In this document: in pieces, positions 1,793 through 11,157 of the stretch
Layout: each line of letters begins with the position of its first letter
How positions within the stretch are numbered: position 1 is the first letter of the stretch
Source: Alkalispirillum mobile
Lineage (GTDB): Bacteria > Pseudomonadota > Gammaproteobacteria > Nitrococcales > Halorhodospiraceae
Length of the DNA stretch: 64,000 nt
NCBI RefSeq assembly: GCF_003664325.1
Contig: NZ_RCDA01000001.1
Span: forward strand, 124,001 to 188,000
Reading direction: 5' to 3'
The notes under the pieces: generated by a model
What the model was told of the DNA's origin: nothing
Seen by the model: only the letters and a program-made list of their open reading frames with translations
Databases searched by the model: none
Program-made: the position numbers and the translations under genes

Positions 1793-2008
1793 AGGCGGTC
1801 GGGGCGGAGGAACGCACCTGAAGCGAGCGCGCCTGGCCGTCCGAGGAGAGGCTGTGCGCGCGTATAAAACGATAAAGAATAAACAAAAAGGAAAATTGTA
1901 TTTTTTATAATTTGGATTGGCATCTACGCTTTCAAGCAGAAACCGCGTGATGCCGCGTGCCTTTGATCGAACGATACTCGCCGCGAATAACAACCGATGA
2001 GAGAAGCC
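1793..2008 (+). promoter_or_regulatory. Leader/promoter region upstream of fccA
   Basis: A 216-base gap between cysA and the sulfide dehydrogenase genes. Bases 1861-1920 form an AT-rich island containing a perfect TATAAT at 1906-1911, a plausible -10 element. No convincing -35 lies 16-18 bases upstream, so if the promoter is real it probably relies on an activator. No rho-independent terminator for cysA is evident. Confidence 0.4.
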
Positions 2009-2368
2009 ATGCGCGAAGTGCAAACGTCGAGCAAGCCATTGAATAACCGGGCGGCCGCCATAGCCGTCGGTGCCCTGCTAGGCCTCGCAGTCGGGCTGCC
2101 CGGCGCCGCCGCCAGCGAGGACGAGATTCAACTCCGACACAAAGAGCTGTTGGCGAGCACCTGCTTTGCCTGCCACGGCGTGGAGGGGCGCCGCGGTGAG
2201 GAGGTTCCGGCGCTCGCGGGCCAGTCCTTCCGGGTGCTCCAGGCGCAATTGCTCGCCTTCCGTGATGACGAGGTACCGGATACGACCGTTATGAATCGTA
2301 TTGCCAAGGGGTACACGGATGAGGAGATCGAGGCCCTGGCCAGCTACTTCTCCAACCTGGAGCGCTGA
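2009..2368 (+). CDS. fccA: Sulfide dehydrogenase (flavocytochrome c) monohaem cytochrome subunit
   Basis: Small c-type cytochrome that accepts electrons from the FccB flavoprotein during periplasmic sulfide oxidation. After a signal peptide (hydrophobic stretch AIAVGALLGLAVGLPGAAA, cleaved near ASE) there is a single haem site CFACH, and a C-terminal VMNRIAKGYTDEE segment supplies the likely axial Met. It is therefore the short one-haem form, not the dihaem form of Allochromatium. Two starts are possible: ATG 1997, and ATG 2009, preferred here for a weak GAG upstream. fccB begins 48 bases downstream on the same strand. Confidence 0.88.
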   Translation: MREVQTSSKPLNNRAAAIAVGALLGLAVGLPGAAASEDEIQLRHKELLASTCFACHGVEGRRGEEVPALAGQSFRVLQAQLLAFRDDEVPDTTVMNRIAKGYTDEEIEALASYFSNLER

Positions 2369-2416: not shown

Positions 2417-3730
2417 ATGGACCAGCCCCTGATCAACCGGCGCCAGGCCCTTGGCCTTTTGGGTGCAACCGGTGCTGTCACTGCCCTGGGTAGCCTGGGT
2501 GTGCCGATGACCGCCCGTGCCGCCGGCGCAGGCCATGTGGTGGTGGTCGGTGGTGGCTTCGGCGGAGCGACGGCCGCCAAGTTCCTCAAGCGCTTCAACC
2601 CTGCCGTGGAGGTGACGCTGGTCGAGGCCTCCGAGCACTTCTATACCTGCCCGTTCAGTAACTGGTACCTGGGCGGTCTCAGGGAGATGGCGTACATCCG
2701 CCACGGCTACGATGAGTTGAAGGACAGGTATGGGGTACACGTGGTGCACGCCACCGCCGAGGACGTGGACGGGGATCGGCACGAGGTGCGCCTGAGCACC
2801 GGGGAACGGGTGCGCTACGACAAACTGGTGCTATCGCCGGGCATCGATTTCGACTGGGATGGTCTGGATGGTTACGACGAGGCCGCAGCGGAAAAGGCTC
2901 CCCACGCGTGGAAGGCCGGGGAGCAAACTCGGCTGCTGCGGAGCCAATTGGAAGCGATGGACGACGGCGGGTTGTTCATCCTTCGCGCCCCGGACAACCC
3001 CTTCCGCTGCCCGCCGGGGCCCTATGAGCGTGTCAGCCTGATCGCCCACTACTTCAAGGAGCACAAGCCGCGCTCCAAGATCCTGCTGCTGGATGCCAAG
3101 GACAACTTCTCCAAGCAGCCGCTGTTCATGGATGGCTGGGAGCAGGTGTACGGCGACATGATTGAGTGGGTCGGCGCGTCCCAGGACGGCAACGTGATCT
3201 CGGTGGATGCCGATAACCTTACCGTGGAGACCGAGTTCGGCTCCCGGCACCAGGCGGATGTCCTCAACATCGTCCCTCCGCAGCAAGCCGGTTTCATCGC
3301 GCACCGCGCCGGGGTGGCCGATGACAGCGGTTGGGTGCCGGTCAAACCCCAGACCTTCGAGTCCACCCAGGTGGACGACATCTATGTAGTGGGCGACGCG
3401 ACCATCGCCGCGCCCATGCCCAAGTCCGGCTTTTGCGCCAATGCCCAGGCCAAGGTCGTGGCCTCGGCGATTGTCTCGGAGTTCGCCGGCCATGAGCCGC
3501 CGCCCGCAATCTGGAACAACACCTGCTACAGTCTCATCGCACCGGGGTACGGAATCTCCGTGGCCGGGGTGTACAAGGTGATTGATGGGCAGATTGCCGA
3601 GGTGCCGGGCTCCGGCGGCGTGAGCCCCCGGGATACCGACGAGGCATTCCGGGCTCGCGAGGCCGAATACGCCGTCAACTGGTACGAGGCCATGAGCGAG
3701 GACACCTGGGGGACCCGCTTCCGCGGCTGA
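2417..3730 (+). CDS. fccB: Sulfide dehydrogenase (flavocytochrome c) flavoprotein subunit
   Basis: Periplasmic FAD enzyme oxidising sulfide to sulfane sulfur and passing electrons to FccA. The ATG at 2417 has ACAGGAG 6 bases upstream and gives a Tat signal peptide with NRRQALGLLG. The 437-residue protein has the dinucleotide fold VVVVGGGFGGAT, a Tyr-Thr-Cys motif at Cys78 (precursor numbering), matching the cysteine that binds FAD covalently in this family, and cysteines 198 (FRCPPGPYERVS) and 340 (SGFCANAQAK), candidates for the redox-active disulfide. The C-terminal FCSD dimerisation domain starts near residue 360. It follows fccA and precedes a sulfur transporter and a SoxYZ carrier. Confidence 0.93.
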   Translation: MDQPLINRRQALGLLGATGAVTALGSLGVPMTARAAGAGHVVVVGGGFGGATAAKFLKRFNPAVEVTLVEASEHFYTCPFSNWYLGGLREMAYIRHGYDELKDRYGVHVVHATAEDVDGDRHEVRLSTGERVRYDKLVLSPGIDFDWDGLDGYDEAAAEKAPHAWKAGEQTRLLRSQLEAMDDGGLFILRAPDNPFRCPPGPYERVSLIAHYFKEHKPRSKILLLDAKDNFSKQPLFMDGWEQVYGDMIEWVGASQDGNVISVDADNLTVETEFGSRHQADVLNIVPPQQAGFIAHRAGVADDSGWVPVKPQTFESTQVDDIYVVGDATIAAPMPKSGFCANAQAKVVASAIVSEFAGHEPPPAIWNNTCYSLIAPGYGISVAGVYKVIDGQIAEVPGSGGVSPRDTDEAFRAREAEYAVNWYEAMSEDTWGTRFRG

Positions 3731-3812
3731 CCCCTGTCGGTGGACTGCACTGACCCGGCCCCGGGCGCGCTTCTGTCGCGCCCGGGGCGTGTTGTGTGTA
3801 TGAGGAGGGGTT

Positions 3813-4877
3813 TTGTTGGAGGCATTGGAACACACCACGATCGTGAACCTGGGTGGGCTGCTGATTGGCCTGCTGTTCGGGGCGGTGGGGCAGCGCAGTG
3901 GGTTTTGCCTCACCCGCGGGCTTCAGCGCTGCTTCCAGGCCGGGGACGGCCGCAAGCTGCGTAGCTTCGTTCTGGCCATGGTCACCGCCCTGGTGGGGAC
4001 CCAACTCCTGGCCAGCTTCGGTCTGGTCGACCTCAGCCGCAGCCTGTACCTCGGGGCGGAGTTCTCCTGGCTGCTGGTGCCCCTGGGCGGAGTGCTGTTC
4101 GGCTACGGCATGGTGATGGCCAACGGGTGTGGTGCCCGGGCGACGGTTCTGCTGGGGAGCGGTAATCTGCGTGCCTTCGTTGTGCTGACCTGCCTGGGCG
4201 TTGCCGCTTTCATGGCGTTGACGGGGGTTTTCGCCCAGTGGCGGCTCGCCGTGGCGGACCTCACCTCCATGCGCCTGGCCCTGGGCGCCGGACTGGATGC
4301 CTGGCTTGCCAGTGCGGGCTTGCCGGGCTGGCTGGCCCGTTGGCTGATGGTGGCCGTGCTGGCCGTACCATTGGTGGCCTTTGTGCTGGCCGACCGGCGA
4401 TTCTTCCGTCAAAGCCGTGGTGACTGGGTGGCGGGGGTGCTCATCGGTCTGCTGGTGCCGGCGGGGTGGTGGGTCACCGGGTACTTGGGTGCCGACGATT
4501 TTGATCCCGTGGCCGTGGTTTCCTTGACCTTCGTTGCGCCCATCGGGGATAGCATTCAGTACCTGATGCTGGCCAGTGGCACGGACCTCGGCTTCGGCGT
4601 GACCGTGGTCGCCGGCATCCTGCTGGGGTCGCTGGCCAGCGCGTTGCTGAGCGGCACTTTTCGCCTGGAGGGCTTCAGCCACCCGTTGCGCATGCTCCGT
4701 TACATGGGCGGCGGCGCGCTGATGGGCATCGGGGGTGCGTTGGCGTTGGGGTGCTCCATTGGCCAGGGCATCACCGGGTTATCGACACTGGCACTGCCTT
4801 CACTGTTCGCGGCCGCCGGCATCGTCTTGGGCGGTTTCCTGGCCCTGCGCGGCCCGACTCGGCTGCCGCCCATCTGA
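3813..4877 (+). CDS. YeeE/YedE family sulfur-compound transporter
   Basis: Integral inner-membrane protein of about ten helices. In the YeeE (TsuA) family, conserved cysteines pass thiosulfate or other sulfur species across the membrane. The expected cysteine motifs are present: RSGFCLTRGL near the N-terminus, ANGCGARAT in the first repeat and ALGCSIGQG in the second, consistent with the internal two-fold pseudo-repeat. The start is TTG 3813, supported by GAGGAGGGG at 3802-3810; no ATG in frame fits. Its place between fccB and the SoxYZ carrier suggests handling of sulfane sulfur, sulfite or thiosulfate from sulfide oxidation. The substrate is inferred. Confidence 0.85.
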   Translation: MLEALEHTTIVNLGGLLIGLLFGAVGQRSGFCLTRGLQRCFQAGDGRKLRSFVLAMVTALVGTQLLASFGLVDLSRSLYLGAEFSWLLVPLGGVLFGYGMVMANGCGARATVLLGSGNLRAFVVLTCLGVAAFMALTGVFAQWRLAVADLTSMRLALGAGLDAWLASAGLPGWLARWLMVAVLAVPLVAFVLADRRFFRQSRGDWVAGVLIGLLVPAGWWVTGYLGADDFDPVAVVSLTFVAPIGDSIQYLMLASGTDLGFGVTVVAGILLGSLASALLSGTFRLEGFSHPLRMLRYMGGGALMGIGGALALGCSIGQGITGLSTLALPSLFAAAGIVLGGFLALRGPTRLPPI

Positions 4878-4961
4878 CACAAGCATATTAAGAAAAAGCA
4901 TGGAACCAGCCGCTTTGCTGCCTATCAAAACCTGTTAAATCCGCTGGAGTTGAACAGCCCT

Positions 4962-5801
4962 ATGCCCCAGAAGCGTTGGAATGACCACCTGATGAGCCGC
5001 CGTGCCGTGCTGCGACACGGCGCTAATGGACTGCTTGCTGGCGCCGCCCTTTGGGCACTGCCCTCCGTGGCCTGGGGGCGCCAGGCCTGGGAGCGGCTGG
5101 ACGAGACCCGCGCGATTGTCGACGGGCGCACTCCTACTGGGCGGGGCATTACCCTGGACCTGCCCTCGGTATCGGAGGATGGCGCTTCCGTGCGGCTCAC
5201 GGTCAGCGTGGACAGCCCCATGAGTTCCGATGATTACGTGGAGGCGATCCACCTCTACGCCCTGGGCAACCCATCACCGCCGATTGCCACCTTCCGGCTG
5301 ACCCCCCGGGCGGGGAAGGCCGAAATCACCACCCGCGTCCGGCTCAACGAGTCGCAGACAGTCGTCGCCCTGGCCGAGATGAGCGACGGGTCGGTCCGTG
5401 TCGCGGAACAGCGGCCGAGGGTGACCGTGAGTGGCTGCCTGATCCGGGAAGAAACCTACGGCAACGGCAGTGACGACACCTTGCCTGAGCCGCGGGTACG
5501 GATGCCGCGTCGCCTCGCCGCCGGTGAGCCCGGCGAGATCATCACGCTGCTCAACCACCCGATGGAGACGGGCTTGCGGGAGGATGCTGATGGGGAGACC
5601 ATCCCGCAGCGGATTATCGAGCGCTTCCGTGCCGAGCTGGACGGGGAGACCGTAATCGATGCGGAACTGGCGCGTTCGCTGGCAGCCGACCCTTACATCC
5701 GCTTTTACTTCCGGGCTGAGGAGGAGGGCGAGCTGTACCTGCTCTGGCAGGAGGACAGCGGTGCGACGGCCGAGAGCCGGCAGAGTGTCTCTCCGGGCTG
5801 A
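4962..5801 (+). CDS. Fused SoxY-SoxZ-like sulfur carrier with Tat signal
   Basis: Single 279-residue protein joining a SoxY-like and a SoxZ-like domain, the two halves of the periplasmic carrier that holds sulfur intermediates on a cysteine. A Tat signal (SRRAVLRHGANGLLAGAAL) precedes the SoxY domain (about 50-158), which ends RVTVSGC; Cys159 aligns with the carrier cysteine of the canonical C-terminal GGCGG arm. Instead of ending there, the chain runs through a 15-residue linker into a SoxZ domain (about 172-270, ending FYFRAEEEGELYLLWQ). ATG 4962 is used; ATG 4992 is an alternative. It resembles fused SoxYZ-like carriers associated with quinoprotein dehydrogenases, but here follows fccAB and yeeE. 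No soxAX, soxB or soxCD is in the window. Confidence 0.85.
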   Translation: MPQKRWNDHLMSRRAVLRHGANGLLAGAALWALPSVAWGRQAWERLDETRAIVDGRTPTGRGITLDLPSVSEDGASVRLTVSVDSPMSSDDYVEAIHLYALGNPSPPIATFRLTPRAGKAEITTRVRLNESQTVVALAEMSDGSVRVAEQRPRVTVSGCLIREETYGNGSDDTLPEPRVRMPRRLAAGEPGEIITLLNHPMETGLREDADGETIPQRIIERFRAELDGETVIDAELARSLAADPYIRFYFRAEEEGELYLLWQEDSGATAESRQSVSPG

Positions 5802-5827
5802 CATCATACTGTCAGTCACAGTAATGA

Positions 5828-5864
5828 AAGGGCCCCGGGCTGTGCTGAGCCGGGGCCCTTCTTT
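5828..5864. terminator. Intrinsic terminator after the fcc-yeeE-soxYZ genes
   Basis: Perfect 11-bp inverted repeat AAGGGCCCCGG / CCGGGGCCCTT (5828-5838 and 5850-5860) around an 11-base loop, followed by CTTT. It closes the sulfur operon and, being flanked by A and T residues, could also serve the convergent DUF2189 gene. Confidence 0.9.
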
Positions 5865-5926
5865 ATCACGAGCGGTGAACCGGGGCCGATGGGGCGCTCG
5901 CCAAGCCCTTCAGCCCCCGGCAGTGC

Positions 5927-6766
5927 TCAGGCCTCTGCGGGCGGCTCCTCCTGGCCCGGCACGGGGTTCTTCGGCACCTCCGCGGCCACCATGTCCCGGT
6001 ATGCGTGCCAGCTGGCATGGCCCAGGAGCGGCAGGATGAGCGCCAGTCCGAGGTAGAACGTCACCAGCCCCGCGATGGTCAGCGCGGCCAGCAGGGCCGC
6101 CCACAGCAGCATCGCGTCGAGGTTACGGTACACCGCCTGCAGACTCGCGGTGATGGCATCCATGAAGGTGGCCTGCCGATCCACCAGCATGGGTACGCTG
6201 ACCACGCTCAGGGCGAAGGCCAGAAAGGCGAGGATCCCGCCAATCGCGCCACCAAAGGCAAGGAACGCGACACCCTGGGTGCTCAACGTGGCTTCCACCA
6301 GGCCGGCCAGCCCGGTGGGAATATTGCCAAAGAACAGGGCGAAGAGCAGCGTGGCCAGCCGTACCCAGAACAGGAAGAAGATCATCAGGGTCAGGCCCAT
6401 CAGCGAGATCTGCACCGGGTTGGACCGCCAGGCCGAAATGGCGGCTCCAAACGACGGGCGTTGGCCGTGCTCCAACCGGCGGCTCATGTCGTAAAAGCCG
6501 ACCGCGAGCACCGGCGCGATCAGGAGGAAGCCGGCCGCGAGCGGCAGAAGCCAGTGCTGCAAACCGCCGGCGAAAAGAGCGGCGGTGATGGCGAAGCTGA
6601 GCAGGGTGATGCCCAGGCCGTAGCCGATGCTGACTACCGGTGCGCGCATCATGTCCCTGGTTCCGGCAGCCAGCCAGCGCCACGGGTGCTCGATGGAGAC
6701 GTCGCGGATCTCAACTGCGAAATTATCGGAACTTGAAGCCTGTCCTAGGGTGTCGCTTGGTACCAT
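5927..6766 (-). CDS. DUF2189 integral membrane protein
   Basis: A 279-residue inner-membrane protein of unknown function with about six hydrophobic segments. After an amphipathic N-terminal region (VRDV-type start, IEHPWRWLAAGTRDM), helices run through VVSIGYGLGITLL, GFLLIAPVLAVGFYDMSRRLE and later segments to the family-typical ending LILPLLGHASWHAYRDMV. These features match DUF2189, often found near cytochrome oxidase genes; no oxidase gene is adjacent here. The ATG has GGAGG 9 bases upstream and a good sigma-70 promoter at 6835-6862. It is convergent with the SoxYZ carrier across a terminator. Confidence 0.8.
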   Translation of the reverse strand: MVPSDTLGQASSSDNFAVEIRDVSIEHPWRWLAAGTRDMMRAPVVSIGYGLGITLLSFAITAALFAGGLQHWLLPLAAGFLLIAPVLAVGFYDMSRRLEHGQRPSFGAAISAWRSNPVQISLMGLTLMIFFLFWVRLATLLFALFFGNIPTGLAGLVEATLSTQGVAFLAFGGAIGGILAFLAFALSVVSVPMLVDRQATFMDAITASLQAVYRNLDAMLLWAALLAALTIAGLVTFYLGLALILPLLGHASWHAYRDMVAAEVPKNPVPGQEEPPAEA

Positions 6767-6834
6767 GTGCCTTCCCCTCCTGCCTGTGGCCAGATGGCCG
6801 AATCTCCAGCCCCTGTTGTCCGGGGCCTAATTGA

Positions 6835-6862
6835 ACTATGGCAGGTGGGGGTCGACTGTCAA
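6835..6862 (-). promoter_or_regulatory. Predicted sigma-70 promoter for the DUF2189 gene
   Basis: Read on the minus strand, TTGACA (complement of 6857-6862) is followed after 16 bases by CATAGT (complement of 6835-6840). Transcription would start about 60 bases upstream of the ATG at 6766. Confidence 0.6.
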
Positions 6863-6897
6863 ACGGTTCTAATGCGCGCTATGGCGCTATAGATTGT

Positions 6898-7563
6898 TCA
6901 TTTTCCGTGGATATAGTCCCGGTCATCAAAACTGCGCACCCACTCGGGCTTGAAGACCGTCAGCATGGTCATGGTGGTGCCGTTGACGAAACCCTCCGGC
7001 AGCATGATCAAGGGCATGAGCACCAGGTAATCCCCGACTACCCGTTCCCACGGATAAACACCGAACAGCCCCAGCAGCAGCCCACCCGTTGCCATGGTTG
7101 CGCCGATGACAAGCATCGCGGCAAGGTGCGCTGAAACGAGCACATAGACAAAGAAGTGGCGAGGTAGCCAGGTGGCCACCAGACGGTGCAGACGGCTCGC
7201 TAGCATGACCGGGAGCACTACCCCGATCAGCCCGTTGATACCGAGCGTGGCCCAGTCGTAGAAGCCCATGGCCGTGTGGACCAGCAGGGCCAGTGAGGCG
7301 CCCACCAGTGCCAGGCGCCAGCCGAATATCAGTGTCATCGAGGTGATGCCCAGCAGGTGCAGTTCCAGTCCGGCGTGGATGCCCGCCTGCATGCGCCAGA
7401 GCAGCACCAGCAATACGGTCGCGCCGAAAAAGACATGCTGCAGGTCGTTTTCCTGGAGCAGGCGCCAGGGGGCACGGAGCACGGCCCAGATGGCCAGGCT
7501 CACGAATACCGGCAGGGTGACCCAGGCCACCCAGGCAGGAAGGAGTCCCTCGGGGATATTCAT
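6898..7563 (-). CDS. CbiM-like energy-coupling-factor ABC transporter membrane protein
   Basis: A 221-residue membrane protein with about seven helices and the CbiM-type N-terminus MNIPEGLLP. In cobalt and nickel ECF systems this N-terminus reaches the metal site, though the classical CbiM opening has a His (MHIPDG) that is Asn here. Other family marks are LELHLLGITSMTLIFGWRLAL and LPEGFVNGTTMTML. No EcfT or EcfA ATPase gene is adjacent, so it is an orphan; this subtype occurs alone in many Proteobacteria. Whether it transports a metal is unknown. It lies 36 bases downstream of another membrane-protein gene, suggesting co-transcription. Confidence 0.75.
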   Translation of the reverse strand: MNIPEGLLPAWVAWVTLPVFVSLAIWAVLRAPWRLLQENDLQHVFFGATVLLVLLWRMQAGIHAGLELHLLGITSMTLIFGWRLALVGASLALLVHTAMGFYDWATLGINGLIGVVLPVMLASRLHRLVATWLPRHFFVYVLVSAHLAAMLVIGATMATGGLLLGLFGVYPWERVVGDYLVLMPLIMLPEGFVNGTTMTMLTVFKPEWVRSFDDRDYIHGK

Positions 7564-7599
7564 TAGTGTGGCCTCACTCCTCTGAACACGGGCCCGGGA

Positions 7600-8373
7600 T
7601 CAGCGGTCAGCCGCCCCGGCCAAGGCCTGGAAGGGATTGCCGGCGGACTCCGCCACGGCGCGTGTGGCCAGGGCCGGCCACAGACAGAACAAGGGCAGGC
7701 CCACCAGGGCGAGGCGAAAGTCGACCAGGGCCAGCGCACCGGTCAGTAGCAGCGGGGCGGCAAAAAAAGCATCTAGCCAGCCACCGTCGTACAATGCCCG
7801 CCGGGCCCGGCGCAGGGTGTGGCCGGGGCGGGCACGAACCAACAGCACGAGCATGGGTAGCCAGAGCCATGCGCCGAGCAGTAGCTGTATAACCCCGTAG
7901 AGCAGTAGGCCGGTAATAAGTTCCAGCCCTGGAACGGTGGTGTAGGGGTCCAGGGCGCGTTCGTGGGCGTAATCCCAAACCCCACCAACGAGCTGTGGTA
8001 GCCATGCCAGGGCGGCAAGGGTGATGGCCGCGGCCAGCGCGGCCTGTAACAGGCTTTGCAGGATCACGCCGAGCACGCCGCGAAGCAGTGCGGCACGCTG
8101 GTGGGCAGGCGGCAGGCCCAGTGCCACGGCACATAACCAACTGGCGAGCGCCATGACGGCGGTGACCGAGGTGGCCAGCCACCAGGCCGACAGGGCCAGC
8201 TGCGGACCGGTCCCGAGGGGCGCGGCCAGGCTGTACACGAGGGCACCGGAATGGGCAGCCGCGAGTCCTAGCAGCAGGGGGAGCATCACGCGGGGCAGAA
8301 AGCCCCCTTGCAGCAGCTCCACGGCGGCCTTGAGCAGTGCGCCCGGTTGTGAGCGGATCAACGGGTCAGTCAA
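7600..8373 (-). CDS. Unrecognised polytopic membrane protein
   Basis: A 257-residue protein I do not recognise. It is very rich in Leu and Ala with about six predicted membrane helices (for example MLPLLLGLAAAHSGALVYSL, GLLLYGVIQLLLGAWLWLPML, LALVGLPLFCLWPALATRAV). An Arg-rich cytoplasmic loop (VRARPGHTLRRARRALYDG) lies between helices four and five. The overall pattern recalls BPSS1780/DUF2189-like glycerophosphoryl-diester-type membrane domains, but no diagnostic motif is seen. It precedes the CbiM-like gene on the same strand and is divergent from the SpmA-SpmB fusion gene. Confidence 0.6.
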   Translation of the reverse strand: MTDPLIRSQPGALLKAAVELLQGGFLPRVMLPLLLGLAAAHSGALVYSLAAPLGTGPQLALSAWWLATSVTAVMALASWLCAVALGLPPAHQRAALLRGVLGVILQSLLQAALAAAITLAALAWLPQLVGGVWDYAHERALDPYTTVPGLELITGLLLYGVIQLLLGAWLWLPMLVLLVRARPGHTLRRARRALYDGGWLDAFFAAPLLLTGALALVDFRLALVGLPLFCLWPALATRAVAESAGNPFQALAGAADR

Positions 8374-8491
8374 GGCGGGTACCAGGTCGGCGAATGGCGG
8401 ATTAGGCTAATCGGCCGGGGTCGTTGCTGGCAAGCCCGCCGTCGCTCGCCAATGCGCCGCTACCAGGGACAGAGAGGGGAGCAGGCAGGTA

Positions 8492-9790
8492 ATGAACTGG
8501 ATTTTCCTGGCGATCGTGCTGATCGCCTTTGCTACCGCGGCCTGGCGGGAGGTCCGCTTTGACGGCGGCCCGGGGGATGAGTCGCCCATGCAGGCGCTCT
8601 CCAGCGGCGTGATCGAATCTGCTGGAGGCGCCGTGGAGTTGGCGCTGGGGCTCGTTGGCGTCATGACCCTCTTCCTGGGTCTGATGAAGGTGGCGGAGGC
8701 CGGGGGGCTGCTGACGATTATCGCGAAGCTCATTCGCCCGGTCATGACCCGGCTCTTCCCGGACGTCCCTCCGGACCACCCCGCCATGGGGGCGATGATC
8801 CTTAATATGTCGGCCAATGCCCTGGGACTGGGGAACGCCGCCACCCCTTTCGGCATCCGGGCCATGCAGGAGCTTGACAAGCTCAACCCCCACCCCGGAA
8901 CGGCCACCAACTCCATGGCCCTGTTCCTCGCCATCAATACCTCCTCCATCACCCTGCTGCCGACGGGCGTCATTGCGTTGCGCGCCGCGGCGGGCTCCGA
9001 GGACCCGGCCGGCATCCTGCCGACCACCCTGGTGGCTACCATCTGCGCCACCATCGCGGCGGTCAGCGCCGCGACCCTGCTCCGGCGGTTCTTCCCCGCG
9101 GGCCCCCCGGATCCGGCAGTGCGCACGATGGAACGGCCCTGGGTGGAGGACAAGGCGGAGTCAGAGGCGCTCCCCGAGTATTCGAGCCAGGGGTACCCGC
9201 TGTGGGTTTCACTGGTGGCGCTGGGCGGACTGGTCGCGCTGATTCCGCTGACGGTGGCCTACGGGCAGGTCATCTCCCCCTGGATCGTGCCCGGTCTGAT
9301 GGTGGGCTTCCTGCTGTTCGGGGCGTTGCGCGGCGTTCGGATCTACGAGGTGTTCGTCGAGGGGGCGAAAGACGGTTTTCAGGTGGCGTTGCGGATCATC
9401 CCCTACCTCGTCGCTATTCTGGTCGCGGTGGGCATGTTTCGCGCCAGCGGCGCGATGGAGGCCATGGTCGGCGCCATCGGCGGGTTCACCGCCCGATTCG
9501 GCCTGCCGGCGGAGGCCCTGCCCATGGCCTTGTTACGGCCCCTGTCAGGCTCCGGTGCCTATGGGGTGATGGCCTCGATCATCAATGACCCGGCGATTGG
9601 TCCGGACAGCTATGTCGGTTACCTGGTGACCACCTTGCAGGGGTCCACGGAGACCACCTTCTATGTGCTGGCCGTTTACTTTGGTGCGGTGCAGGTGCGA
9701 CGGATACGCCACACCCTGGCTGCGGCGCTGACCGCTGACGTGGTGGCGGTGGTGGCCGCCGTGGCCATTTGCAGTTACTTGTTCCTGTAA
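8492..9790 (+). CDS. Fused SpmA-SpmB-type nucleoside-recognition membrane protein
   Basis: A 432-residue membrane protein combining two Gate (nucleoside-recognition) domains, equivalent to Bacillus spore maturation proteins SpmA (about 1-200) and SpmB (about 230-430). Visible marks are NMSANALGLGNAATPFGIRAM with the following AINTSSITLLPTGV in the first half, and PLSGSGAYGVMASI with QGSTETTFYVLAVYFGAV in the second. In non-sporulating Proteobacteria the fusion is common and its function is unknown; transport across the inner membrane is presumed. The start ATG follows GGGGAGCAGG. Its 3' end overlaps the convergent HEAT-like gene by 16 bases. Confidence 0.85.
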   Translation: MNWIFLAIVLIAFATAAWREVRFDGGPGDESPMQALSSGVIESAGGAVELALGLVGVMTLFLGLMKVAEAGGLLTIIAKLIRPVMTRLFPDVPPDHPAMGAMILNMSANALGLGNAATPFGIRAMQELDKLNPHPGTATNSMALFLAINTSSITLLPTGVIALRAAAGSEDPAGILPTTLVATICATIAAVSAATLLRRFFPAGPPDPAVRTMERPWVEDKAESEALPEYSSQGYPLWVSLVALGGLVALIPLTVAYGQVISPWIVPGLMVGFLLFGALRGVRIYEVFVEGAKDGFQVALRIIPYLVAILVAVGMFRASGAMEAMVGAIGGFTARFGLPAEALPMALLRPLSGSGAYGVMASIINDPAIGPDSYVGYLVTTLQGSTETTFYVLAVYFGAVQVRRIRHTLAAALTADVVAVVAAVAICSYLFL

Positions 9791-11157
9791 TGATCGGCGC
9801 CGGCCGGTTCGGAGGCTGCGCCGGTCTGGTTCAGGGCCTCGGCGATGAGCCGTCGGGCGCGGGGCCAGGCGCCGGCCTCGGCAGCCTGTTCGAGGTCCGC
9901 CAGCAGGTGGCGGATAGTGTCGAGCCGTTTCAGGCGGGTCCGGCCGGCGTGCCGGCCAGCGGTCTCCAGGGCCGCGACCCGCGTCTGCGCCGTGCGCAGC
10001 AGCTCCGGCAGGGGGAAGCCGCTGTGCCAGGGGGTCTGCCGAAGCGCTTGATGCAGTTGCCGCGCGTGGCGGAGCAGGGCGGTGGCGTCGGTCGGGTCCA
10101 GCCGGTCGGCCTTGTCCAGCAGCCCTGCGATGACCGTATGCTGGTCCAGGAACCGGCGCGCATCCGCGCACCAGCACTCCAGTCGCCAGTAGCGGGTGCG
10201 GTACCTGGCCTCTGCGGTCGGGTCCGCCCCGAGCGCCAGCCATGAGCGCCGGCTGCGGGCCAGCCGGCACTTCAGGGCGCCCAGCCGCTCTTCCGTGGGC
10301 TCCGGGTCTGCAGTCAGGTCGTGGGCCAGTTGCTCCAACGCTGTAAGAAGCGTTTGCTCATGCTCGGTGGCTTGCGGTGCTTTGCGGGCAGCACAGAATG
10401 TCCTGGCGCGCTCGAAGCGTTCGGCCAGCAGCGGCTCCGGTGCCGGCTCCAGTTGCGTCCATTGGTTTTCCAGTCGTTGCCGTCGTGCCTGCAAGTCATC
10501 CGTCCACCGGGATCGGCCGAGCCCTTCCATGGCCTCGCACAAGGCCACGGCCTGCTCCTGAACGGATGCTTCAACGGCCTGGCTCTCCAGCAGTTCGTCA
10601 AGCCGCCGCCGTGCCAGCCGCGCGACCCCGCGATCGTCACACCGTGCGACAATGCTCTCCAGGGCCTCCGGGTCTTCCAACAGGCTGACGGCGTATTTCC
10701 GTTGCCGGCGGACGGGGTCGTGGAGTGCGGCTTGCAGGCAGGCCTGTGGGCTGGCCAGGCAGCCCAACGCCTCGCGCCTTACCCGCTCCAGCCGCGCGGA
10801 CTGGGCCAGGTGGGCTAGCACGGTGCGGTCCGGGCAAAGCCGGACGGCTTCCAGCACCGGCCCCAGGTCCCCGCCCCAGTCGTCGCTCTTGAGCAGATAG
10901 CTGTAACGGGCGACGGCGGCCTCCCGCACCGCCCGTGGCTGGTCTTCGGACAGGCAGTGCCGCACAGTGGGCAGGTCGCGGAGGCGCTTAATCGCCGAAG
11001 CGCGCAGTGCCGGATCCTCCTCGCTGATTGCCAAGGCCTGGAGTTGCACTTGATGGCCCGGGTTGTCCGGGCATAATGCGCCAGGGTCCGGCGGCGGCGC
11101 CTCTGCGTCCCGTTCGCTGGCTTTCAGCAGTTTTTTGATGAGGTCCGTGGGGCTCAT
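9775..11157 (-). CDS. HEAT-repeat-like protein, possible DUF349 relative
   Basis: A 460-residue, Arg- and Ala-rich soluble protein without signal peptide. The first ~200 residues consist of short helical units such as DPALRASAIKRLRDLP, QPRAVREAAVARYSYL and RLERVRREALGCLAS, resembling HEAT repeats. The rest is long helices with coiled-coil character (DDLQARRQRLENQWTQLEP; RARRLIAEALNQ). This layout resembles gammaproteobacterial DUF349 proteins (N-terminal repeats, then helical RLxxxW-type segments), but I cannot confirm full DUF349 units. Function unknown. It is divergent from the SLAC1-type gene and overlaps the end of the SpmAB fusion gene by 16 bases. Confidence 0.65.
   Translation of the reverse strand: MSPTDLIKKLLKASERDAEAPPPDPGALCPDNPGHQVQLQALAISEEDPALRASAIKRLRDLPTVRHCLSEDQPRAVREAAVARYSYLLKSDDWGGDLGPVLEAVRLCPDRTVLAHLAQSARLERVRREALGCLASPQACLQAALHDPVRRQRKYAVSLLEDPEALESIVARCDDRGVARLARRRLDELLESQAVEASVQEQAVALCEAMEGLGRSRWTDDLQARRQRLENQWTQLEPAPEPLLAERFERARTFCAARKAPQATEHEQTLLTALEQLAHDLTADPEPTEERLGALKCRLARSRRSWLALGADPTAEARYRTRYWRLECWCADARRFLDQHTVIAGLLDKADRLDPTDATALLRHARQLHQALRQTPWHSGFPLPELLRTAQTRVAALETAGRHAGRTRLKRLDTIRHLLADLEQAAEAGAWPRARRLIAEALNQTGAASEPAGADHYRNK

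Follow-up and report, generated by a model that had tools for sequence, protein, structure and literature searches.

The window, meaning the whole analysed stretch of 64,000 nucleotides of Alkalispirillum mobile DNA, encodes a single chain in which a SoxY and a SoxZ domain are fused and the carrier cysteine, Cys159, sits in the linker between them. The gene stands behind fccA, fccB and a PF04143 sulfur-transporter gene (Table 1), and fusions with the same invariant Gly-Cys-Leu motif are found, mostly behind fccAB, in related genomes in which SoxB had no match and SoxA remained under its cut-off. We consider it somewhat probable that the fusion carries sulfane sulfur in the periplasm as the dedicated partner of flavocytochrome c sulfide dehydrogenase, forming a relay without a Sox cycle. 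What is new is the setting, that is, a fusion joined to fccAB and mostly to a transporter gene in genomes without SoxB.

Table 1 Features of the fusion operon (positions refer to the window).
Feature	Position	Strand	Evidence
fccA, small one-heme cytochrome c subunit	1997..2368	+	one CxxCH; Pfam Cytochrom_C E=1.2e-7
fccB, flavocytochrome c sulfide dehydrogenase flavoprotein	2420..3730	+	FCSD_central 172.5 bits, FCSD-flav_bind 99.2 bits
Terminator-like hairpin, fccB/transporter gap	3758..3788	+	12 G-C pairs; weak T tail
PF04143 sulfur transporter, TsuA/SoxT-like	3813..4877	+	Pfam Sulf_transp 208.6 bits, profile 1-310 of 310
SoxY-SoxZ fusion carrier	4962..5801	+	279 aa; Pfam SoxY and SoxZ; 15-member alignment; AlphaFold2
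Codons Ser157-Gly158-Cys159-Leu160	5430..5441	+	Gly-Cys-Leu invariant 15/15; translation, DNA
Linker residues 160-177, carrier Cys to SoxZ start	5439..5492	+	pLDDT; spacer lengths in 15 fusions

The fusion protein and its carrier cysteine

The Pfam SoxY match covers residues 57-159 of the fusion and ends with Cys159 at the last profile position (112 of 112), to which the carrier cysteine of the SoxY chains in the PDB aligns as well; a SoxZ match follows over residues 182-273, and both matches are far over their cut-offs. In free SoxY the chain is closed by Gly-Gly after the carrier cysteine. The environment of Cys159, the sole cysteine among the 279 residues, reads VTVSGCLIREE, with Leu160 and not Gly-Gly behind the cysteine, and 18 residues lead from there to SoxZ. 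Evidently, the sequence-only reading was right in stating that the SoxY half ends with VSGC, that the chain runs on into SoxZ and that the Gly-Gly is gone, as translation and Pfam matches both indicate. The reading frame has an alternative upstream opening at TTG 4950, and the translated N-terminus is twin-arginine-like (SRRAVLRHG); the protein is presumably periplasmic.

A search of 59 relatives yielded full-length fusions of the Gly-Cys-Leu type at 15 loci in 14 genomes of seven genera, the window's own included, and a profile search in 54 genomes of the order returned the identical 15 loci. Gly158, Cys159 and Leu160 are invariant in all 15 sequences (alignment A1), and the residue preceding Gly158 is Ser in 12, Ala in two, Asn in one and Gly in none, resulting in an arm [SNA]GCL and in no GGC arm at all (0/15). 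Cys159 is the only cysteine beyond residue 40 in 14 of the 15 fusions, and the spacer from the cysteine to the invariant Arg178 measures 15 residues in 13 of them, 16 in one and 18 in the window. Since 14 further full-length fusions exist in relatives and Gly-Cys-Leu is kept throughout, the fusion is not a product of chance. With 15 fused loci across 14 assemblies, an artificial joining of two genes by a frameshift or a sequencing error was ruled out, and the invariant cysteine ruled out a degenerate or relic carrier. The earlier claim depended on Cys159 being conserved in close homologues, and this conservation was indeed found (15/15).

The AlphaFold2 model of the fusion, built on the 15-row alignment, consists of two ordered domains (mean pLDDT 85.1, pTM 0.79), whose pairwise comparison gave Z 12.0 and rmsd 1.6 over 107 residues for the SoxY domain against Paracoccus SoxY (2oxg_B), and Z 9.8 and rmsd 2.0 over 105 residues for the SoxZ domain against Thermus SoxZ (1v8h_A); SoxY and SoxZ are the top families in Foldseek as well. 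Residues 159-165 and 167-169 have a pLDDT of less than 50. Cys159 is accordingly modelled as the first residue of a loop that is tethered at both ends, where it would probably be exposed and mobile, and nothing in the model or the alignment suggests a relic or buried residue. The different working geometry that had been proposed for the carrier is thus compatible with the prediction of a low-confidence loop between ordered domains. For comparison, a fusion of the TIGR04557 type (L100) was modelled from 10 sequences (alignment A2), resulting again in a carrier cysteine, Cys149, within a linker of low confidence (pLDDT of less than 50 for 149-152). Because the linker of this control is likewise poorly ordered in the model, a carrier cysteine tethered at both ends is a trait of known fusions, too. 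The claim of a cysteine inside the linker therefore holds as an observation and fails as a unique trait: the linker cysteine alone is not new, since TIGR04557-type fusions have it in common.

Relation to known carrier families and spread

Among the NCBIfam models, the window protein ranked first with TIGR04487, the SoxY model with an AACIE arm (117.8 bits, cut-off 172), closely followed by TIGR04557 (115.9 bits, cut-off 140) and then by the canonical SoxY model TIGR04488 (96.9 bits, cut-off 125), all three under cut-off, and it barely reached the cut-off of the SoxZ model TIGR04490 (76.2 bits, cut-off 76). It has neither the free C-terminal GGCGG arm of SoxY, its SGCL being followed by linker and SoxZ, nor an AAC[ILV] arm, in place of which all 15 fusions carry [SNA]GC.

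An outlying carrier of the TIGR04557 kind, such as SoxYZ-S2 or SoxYZ-S4 with a role in alcohol metabolism, would share the domain order and the linker cysteine with the window protein, and the profile comparison of the Gly-Cys-Leu fusions with the TIGR04557 type (E=5.2e-35) points in the same direction as the 115.9 bits. However, this score lies under the cut-off of 140; the member L022, the only one that was scored, reached 252 bits, and TIGR04557-type status was otherwise judged from the GGCS arm, which is invariant in 10 of 10 such sequences (A2) as against [SNA]GCL in 15 of 15 (A1). In an unrooted LG+G4 tree computed from 197 columns of 58 SoxY-SoxZ domain pairs, which did not include the published S2 and S4 sequences, the 15 Gly-Cys-Leu fusions stood apart from all other pairs with a support of 100, and nine TIGR04557-type fusions formed another clade with a support of 100. 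As unfused pairs lie between these two clades, separate origins are the simplest account of the two kinds of fusion. Furthermore, the Gly-Cys-Leu fusions neighbour fccAB and a sulfur-transporter gene, and four relatives (G022, G033, G035 and G037) carry both kinds as separate genes on separate contigs. Membership in TIGR04557 was ruled out by score, arm, tree (with the composition given above) and neighbours, and we regard a role of this kind as extremely improbable.

The parent lineage of the Gly-Cys-Leu fusions cannot be named from an unrooted tree. An origin through loss of the stop codon in a pair with AAC arm was considered as well and found no support, the AAC sequences grouping with unfused SoxYZ.

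In a class sample of 369 genomes, drawn evenly from a larger group, the Gly-Cys-Leu fusion was recognised only in the window's genome; many weaker open matches lie beyond the fetched loci of this sample, which may hold more members. The same result was obtained for a phylum sample of 398 genomes, likewise drawn evenly, where every match listed (threshold 1e-45) apart from that of the window is interrupted by one or more stops. A scan of viral contigs gave no Gly-Cys-Leu fusion. A further scan of genome contigs, which perhaps did not cover near relatives of the window, returned four loci, none of them a fusion.

The operon

The fccB reading frame opens at 2372, its likely start (Table 1) being followed by a Tat-type signal, and the transporter gene starts with TTG, its exact start being uncertain. 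Counted from 2372, the gaps in the order fccA-fccB-PF04143-fusion are 3, 82 and 84 bases. An fccA-fccB pair lies upstream of the fusion at 13 of the 15 loci, and the four-gene order with PF04143 in between is found at 10, the window counted; at three loci (G022, G033, G035) fccA-fccB and the fusion occur without the transporter gene. G037, which belongs to the genus of these three, has its fusion on an 11-kb contig that lacks fcc and PF04143, and its fccAB on a separate 3.6-kb contig that ends soon after fccB. The second fusion copy of G002 opens a 3-kb contig, its upstream genes being beyond the contig edge. Most reading frames flanking the operon recur just inside one genus, apart from a few single matches between genera, and the conserved operon contains no further Sox cytochrome and no hydrolase. 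A Thioalkalivibrio survey (PMC6382920) states that gene conservation around fccAB is missing among the sulfur oxidisers compared; among the fusion-bearing genomes of the order, these surroundings are conserved.

One heme motif was found in 12 of 12 aligned FccA copies (L038 and L047 left out; L147 of another class included), and cysteines at positions 93, 213 and 385 of FccB, numbered from the 2372 frame, in 14 of 14 (L147 again included). Cys32, Cys106 and Cys314 of the transporter are kept in nine of nine aligned operon copies, the tenth (L043) being left out.

Expression of fccB and of the transporter gene may be uncoupled by the hairpin that separates them; four such sites were found as compared to 3.0 expected in shuffles, which makes the evidence weak. 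It could also be read as an attenuator that sets the ratio of enzyme to carrier. Outside the operon, a CysA-like sulfate/thiosulfate ABC ATPase (683-1792; Pfam ABC_tran, CysA_C_terminal) lies upstream of fccA on the same strand, and a DUF2189 membrane protein together with a CbiM-like cobalt-uptake membrane protein faces the operon from the other side (5927-7563, minus strand).

Sox, Fcc and sulfur genes in the relatives

FccB is present in 19 of the 59 relatives, including all fusion genomes (14/14 against 5/45 of the others, p=8.7e-10, Fisher's test with kinship ignored). SoxB gave no match in any of the 14 fusion genomes in the profile search and SoxA none over cut-off (0/14), two weak SoxA matches in G012 and G037 amounting to 24-27 bits at a cut-off of 110. 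SoxB and SoxA over cut-off occur in the same seven of the 59 relatives, none of which has the fusion. Because most relatives are without SoxB, the contrast between fusion and SoxB is not significant alone (0/14 versus 7/45, p=0.18, Fisher's test, kinship again ignored). The idea that the fused carrier works with different partners gains support from these counts.

The linkage to FccAB would also fit if the fusion is an activator or redox partner of FccAB, for instance through reductive reactivation as proposed for SoxF, and not a sulfur carrier. A SoxF flavoprotein that reportedly stimulated thiosulfate oxidation in vitro in Chlorobaculum tepidum speaks for this reading. In genomes without SoxB and without SoxA over cut-off, however, there is no Sox cycle to stimulate, and the PF04143 gene in 10 of the 15 operons points to the movement of sulfur; an activator is in our judgement unlikely.

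Distant, unrecognised SoxAX or SoxB substitutes would turn the fusion into a carrier of thiosulfate or sulfite in an altered Sox cycle. SoxH is said to make up for SoxB in Sulfurimonas CVO (PMC11237559), and the weak SoxA matches under cut-off in G012 and G037 speak in the same direction. Against this, SoxB was unmatched and SoxA under cut-off in every fusion genome, and the conserved operon adds neither a Sox cytochrome nor a hydrolase, leaving an altered cycle decidedly unlikely.

The window's genome (G000; 2.95 Mb, 99.7% complete) gave zero matches for SoxB, SoxA and DsrA and contains the fusion as its single SoxY/SoxZ match. Because SoxB and SoxA are missing, the standard Sox thiosulfate cycle is an unlikely role there. 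Clustered CCG-domain (sHdr-like) genes were not found in this genome, whose PF02754 matches fall on three reading frames (416, 289 and 1300 aa) at distant places, and its one TusA gene is located far from the operon. DsrA passed its cut-off in 10 of the 59 relatives, of which G002 and G004 alone carry the fusion.

Static storage or scavenging of sulfur, which would shield the periplasm against polysulfide but pass nothing on, would agree with the three loci that combine fccAB and fusion without a transporter gene and with a window genome that has neither DsrA nor clustered sHdr-like genes to use imported sulfur. At 10 of the 15 loci, however, a sulfur-transporter gene is at hand, and the conservation of Leu160, equal to that of the cysteine, together with the almost constant spacer would suit docking. 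Static binding, which the sequence-only reading had left as an option, is not favoured, since cysteine, leucine and spacer length are conserved along with the sulfide dehydrogenase and often with a sulfur transporter; we hold it to be very improbable.

Arm type and SoxB

The GGCGG arm of SoxY enters the active site of SoxB, and the structure 4uwq is described as a disulfide-linked SoxB-SoxYZ complex. Where the arm was read and SoxB searched, SoxB was present in 31 of 33 genomes with a GGCGG arm (kinship ignored), composed of 7/7 relatives, 8/8 and 16/18; L034 (Thiocapsa; GGCGG) and the TIGR04557-type fetched loci of G300, with SoxB over cut-off, and G188, without it, were left out of the 33. 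Other arms occurred both with SoxB, as GGCA (G097, G237), GGCS (G068) and GGCG (G067, G114), and without SoxB found, as GGCGE (G216), SGCRD (G384) and GGCGNE (G769).

Four genomes from a different class of the same phylum (loci L147, L148, L150 and L151) have soxY and soxZ about 0.5 kb after fccB; their SoxY ends with AACLIG or AACVIG, and SoxB was found in none of the four. Since GGCGG arms go together with SoxB in 31 of 33 genomes and the FccB-linked SoxY with AAC arm is without SoxB in four of four, it may be SoxB that keeps the free glycine-rich arm under selection, whereas the arm could be lost in a carrier that serves FccAB. The SAC arm in G781 and G782, where SoxB is present, counts against a strict rule.

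The locus L147, the only one of the four scored with NCBIfam, has soxX between fccB and soxY and soxA after soxZ, and its SoxY reaches 171.1 against TIGR04487, just below the cut-off of 172. The resulting cluster fccA-fccB-soxX-soxY(AAC arm)-soxZ-soxA at 2834-11105, in a genome without SoxB, recurs by eye as similar reading frames in L148 and L151. It is flanked by molybdenum-hydroxylase genes on one side and by genes of XdhC/molybdenum-cofactor type on the other (families named for L147 only). This odd SoxAX without SoxB may link sulfur supply to the maturation of molybdenum enzymes.

Some single loci are recorded here for their arms. L095 (G384:C189; genome 82% complete) and L152 (G769:C1) are the sources of the free SoxY arms SGCRD and GGCGNE, the latter with a divergent fccB beside SoxY. 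L049 (G002:C207, record 5543-6272) contains separate soxY and soxZ genes adjoining a PF04143 gene, the SoxY ending with VGGAC and the cysteine as last residue; G002 also holds two Gly-Cys-Leu fusions.

Proposed relay

The fusion has probably been re-tooled to accept sulfur from sulfide oxidation. In the relay that we favour, FccB would oxidise sulfide and deliver the electrons to the heme of FccA, and the persulfide sulfur would pass to Cys159 and be held there on the short, doubly tethered loop. At loci with the PF04143 gene, it would then be handed on to the transporter and thereby reach the cytoplasm, and with no SoxB to serve, selection for a glycine-rich free end would cease. With SoxA and SoxB both missing, the standard Sox thiosulfate cycle would be closed to this carrier, and because the loci of G022, G033 and G035 are without the transporter, the import step cannot be general. 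The unlinked fusion of G037, the absence of DsrA and sHdr-like genes in G000, the hairpin in front of the transporter gene, the contrast between fusion and SoxB that is not significant alone, the DsbA-like go-between weighed for SoxT1A and the SAC arms accompanied by SoxB all count against the relay.

To our knowledge, no acceptor of sulfur from flavocytochrome c is established. As far as the available text of the open-licence literature searched goes, no description of an FccAB-linked SoxYZ fusion operon was found. There, SoxYZ fusions are tied to alcohol, formate and methanol metabolism (PMC12997753, PMC11237559, PMC11582611, PMC12172469), and for Methylophaga without SoxAB two soxYZ fusions are reported, the fcc genes not being described there as linked to them (PMC6548844). 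A large SoxY survey deleted sequences without a GGC motif (PMC11237559), so that Gly-Cys-Leu carriers would be missing from it. PMC11582611 describes the route by which sulfur oxidisers bring sulfur into their cytoplasm as poorly understood.

The wider picture can be put forward only tentatively, its chances being a little short of even: the Gly-Cys-Leu fusions would be a third, independently fused SoxYZ lineage and the dedicated acceptor of FccAB, completed by a SoxT-like importer to a self-contained relay from sulfide to cytoplasm. As a general rule, the GGCGG arm would be kept where SoxB is served, and FccAB-linked SoxY in genomes without SoxB would lose it, either through an AAC arm or through fusion with SoxZ. 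With a compact operon and a single reactive cysteine, both the sulfur acceptor and the entry into the cytoplasm become testable by mass spectrometry, and the role of SoxB in keeping the glycine-rich free arm is offered as a rule that can be tested as well.

Comparison with known systems

Canonical SoxYZ (TIGR04488 with GGCGG arm, TIGR04490; PDB 2ox5, 2oxg, 2oxh, 4uwq) resembles the window protein in both folds and in the position of the carrier cysteine. In contrast, the window protein is one chain with an arm [SNA]GCL that has no free end, and the fusion genomes contain no SoxB and no SoxA over cut-off.

The TIGR04557 carriers (e.g. PP_2677 of the ped cluster; SoxYZ-S2, SoxYZ-S4) are likewise single-chain SoxY-SoxZ proteins whose cysteine falls in a linker of low confidence. 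They differ by their own arm GGCSAP (GGCSLP in L102), by their separate clade and by a setting in alcohol metabolism according to the literature (PMC12997753, PMC11237559, PMC11582611).

TIGR04487 SoxY with a separate SoxZ has an aliphatic residue after the cysteine in common with the fusion, and in four genomes also fccB upstream and the absence of SoxB, whereas it is unfused, carries an AAC arm and groups in the tree with unfused SoxYZ. The arrangement of SoxEF, as FccAB-type proteins beside soxYZ are called, is paralleled at L050, L152, L153 and L157, where FccB lies no more than a few kb from SoxY and SoxZ; there, however, SoxY is free and SoxB is present in three of the four genomes (G001, G645 and G725, not G769).

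With SoxT1A and TsuA (YeeE-YedE, PF04143) the operon transporter shares the family, and its three conserved cysteines may correspond to those that line the channel according to PMC11582611. It scores far under the cut-off of the NCBIfam TsuA model (104.9 of 400 bits). According to the same paper (PMC11582611), the cytoplasm of Hyphomicrobium denitrificans receives sulfur through SoxT1A; the authors regard a transfer from the cysteine of SoxY as conceivable, also weigh a DsbA-like go-between and raise the spacing of the cysteines.
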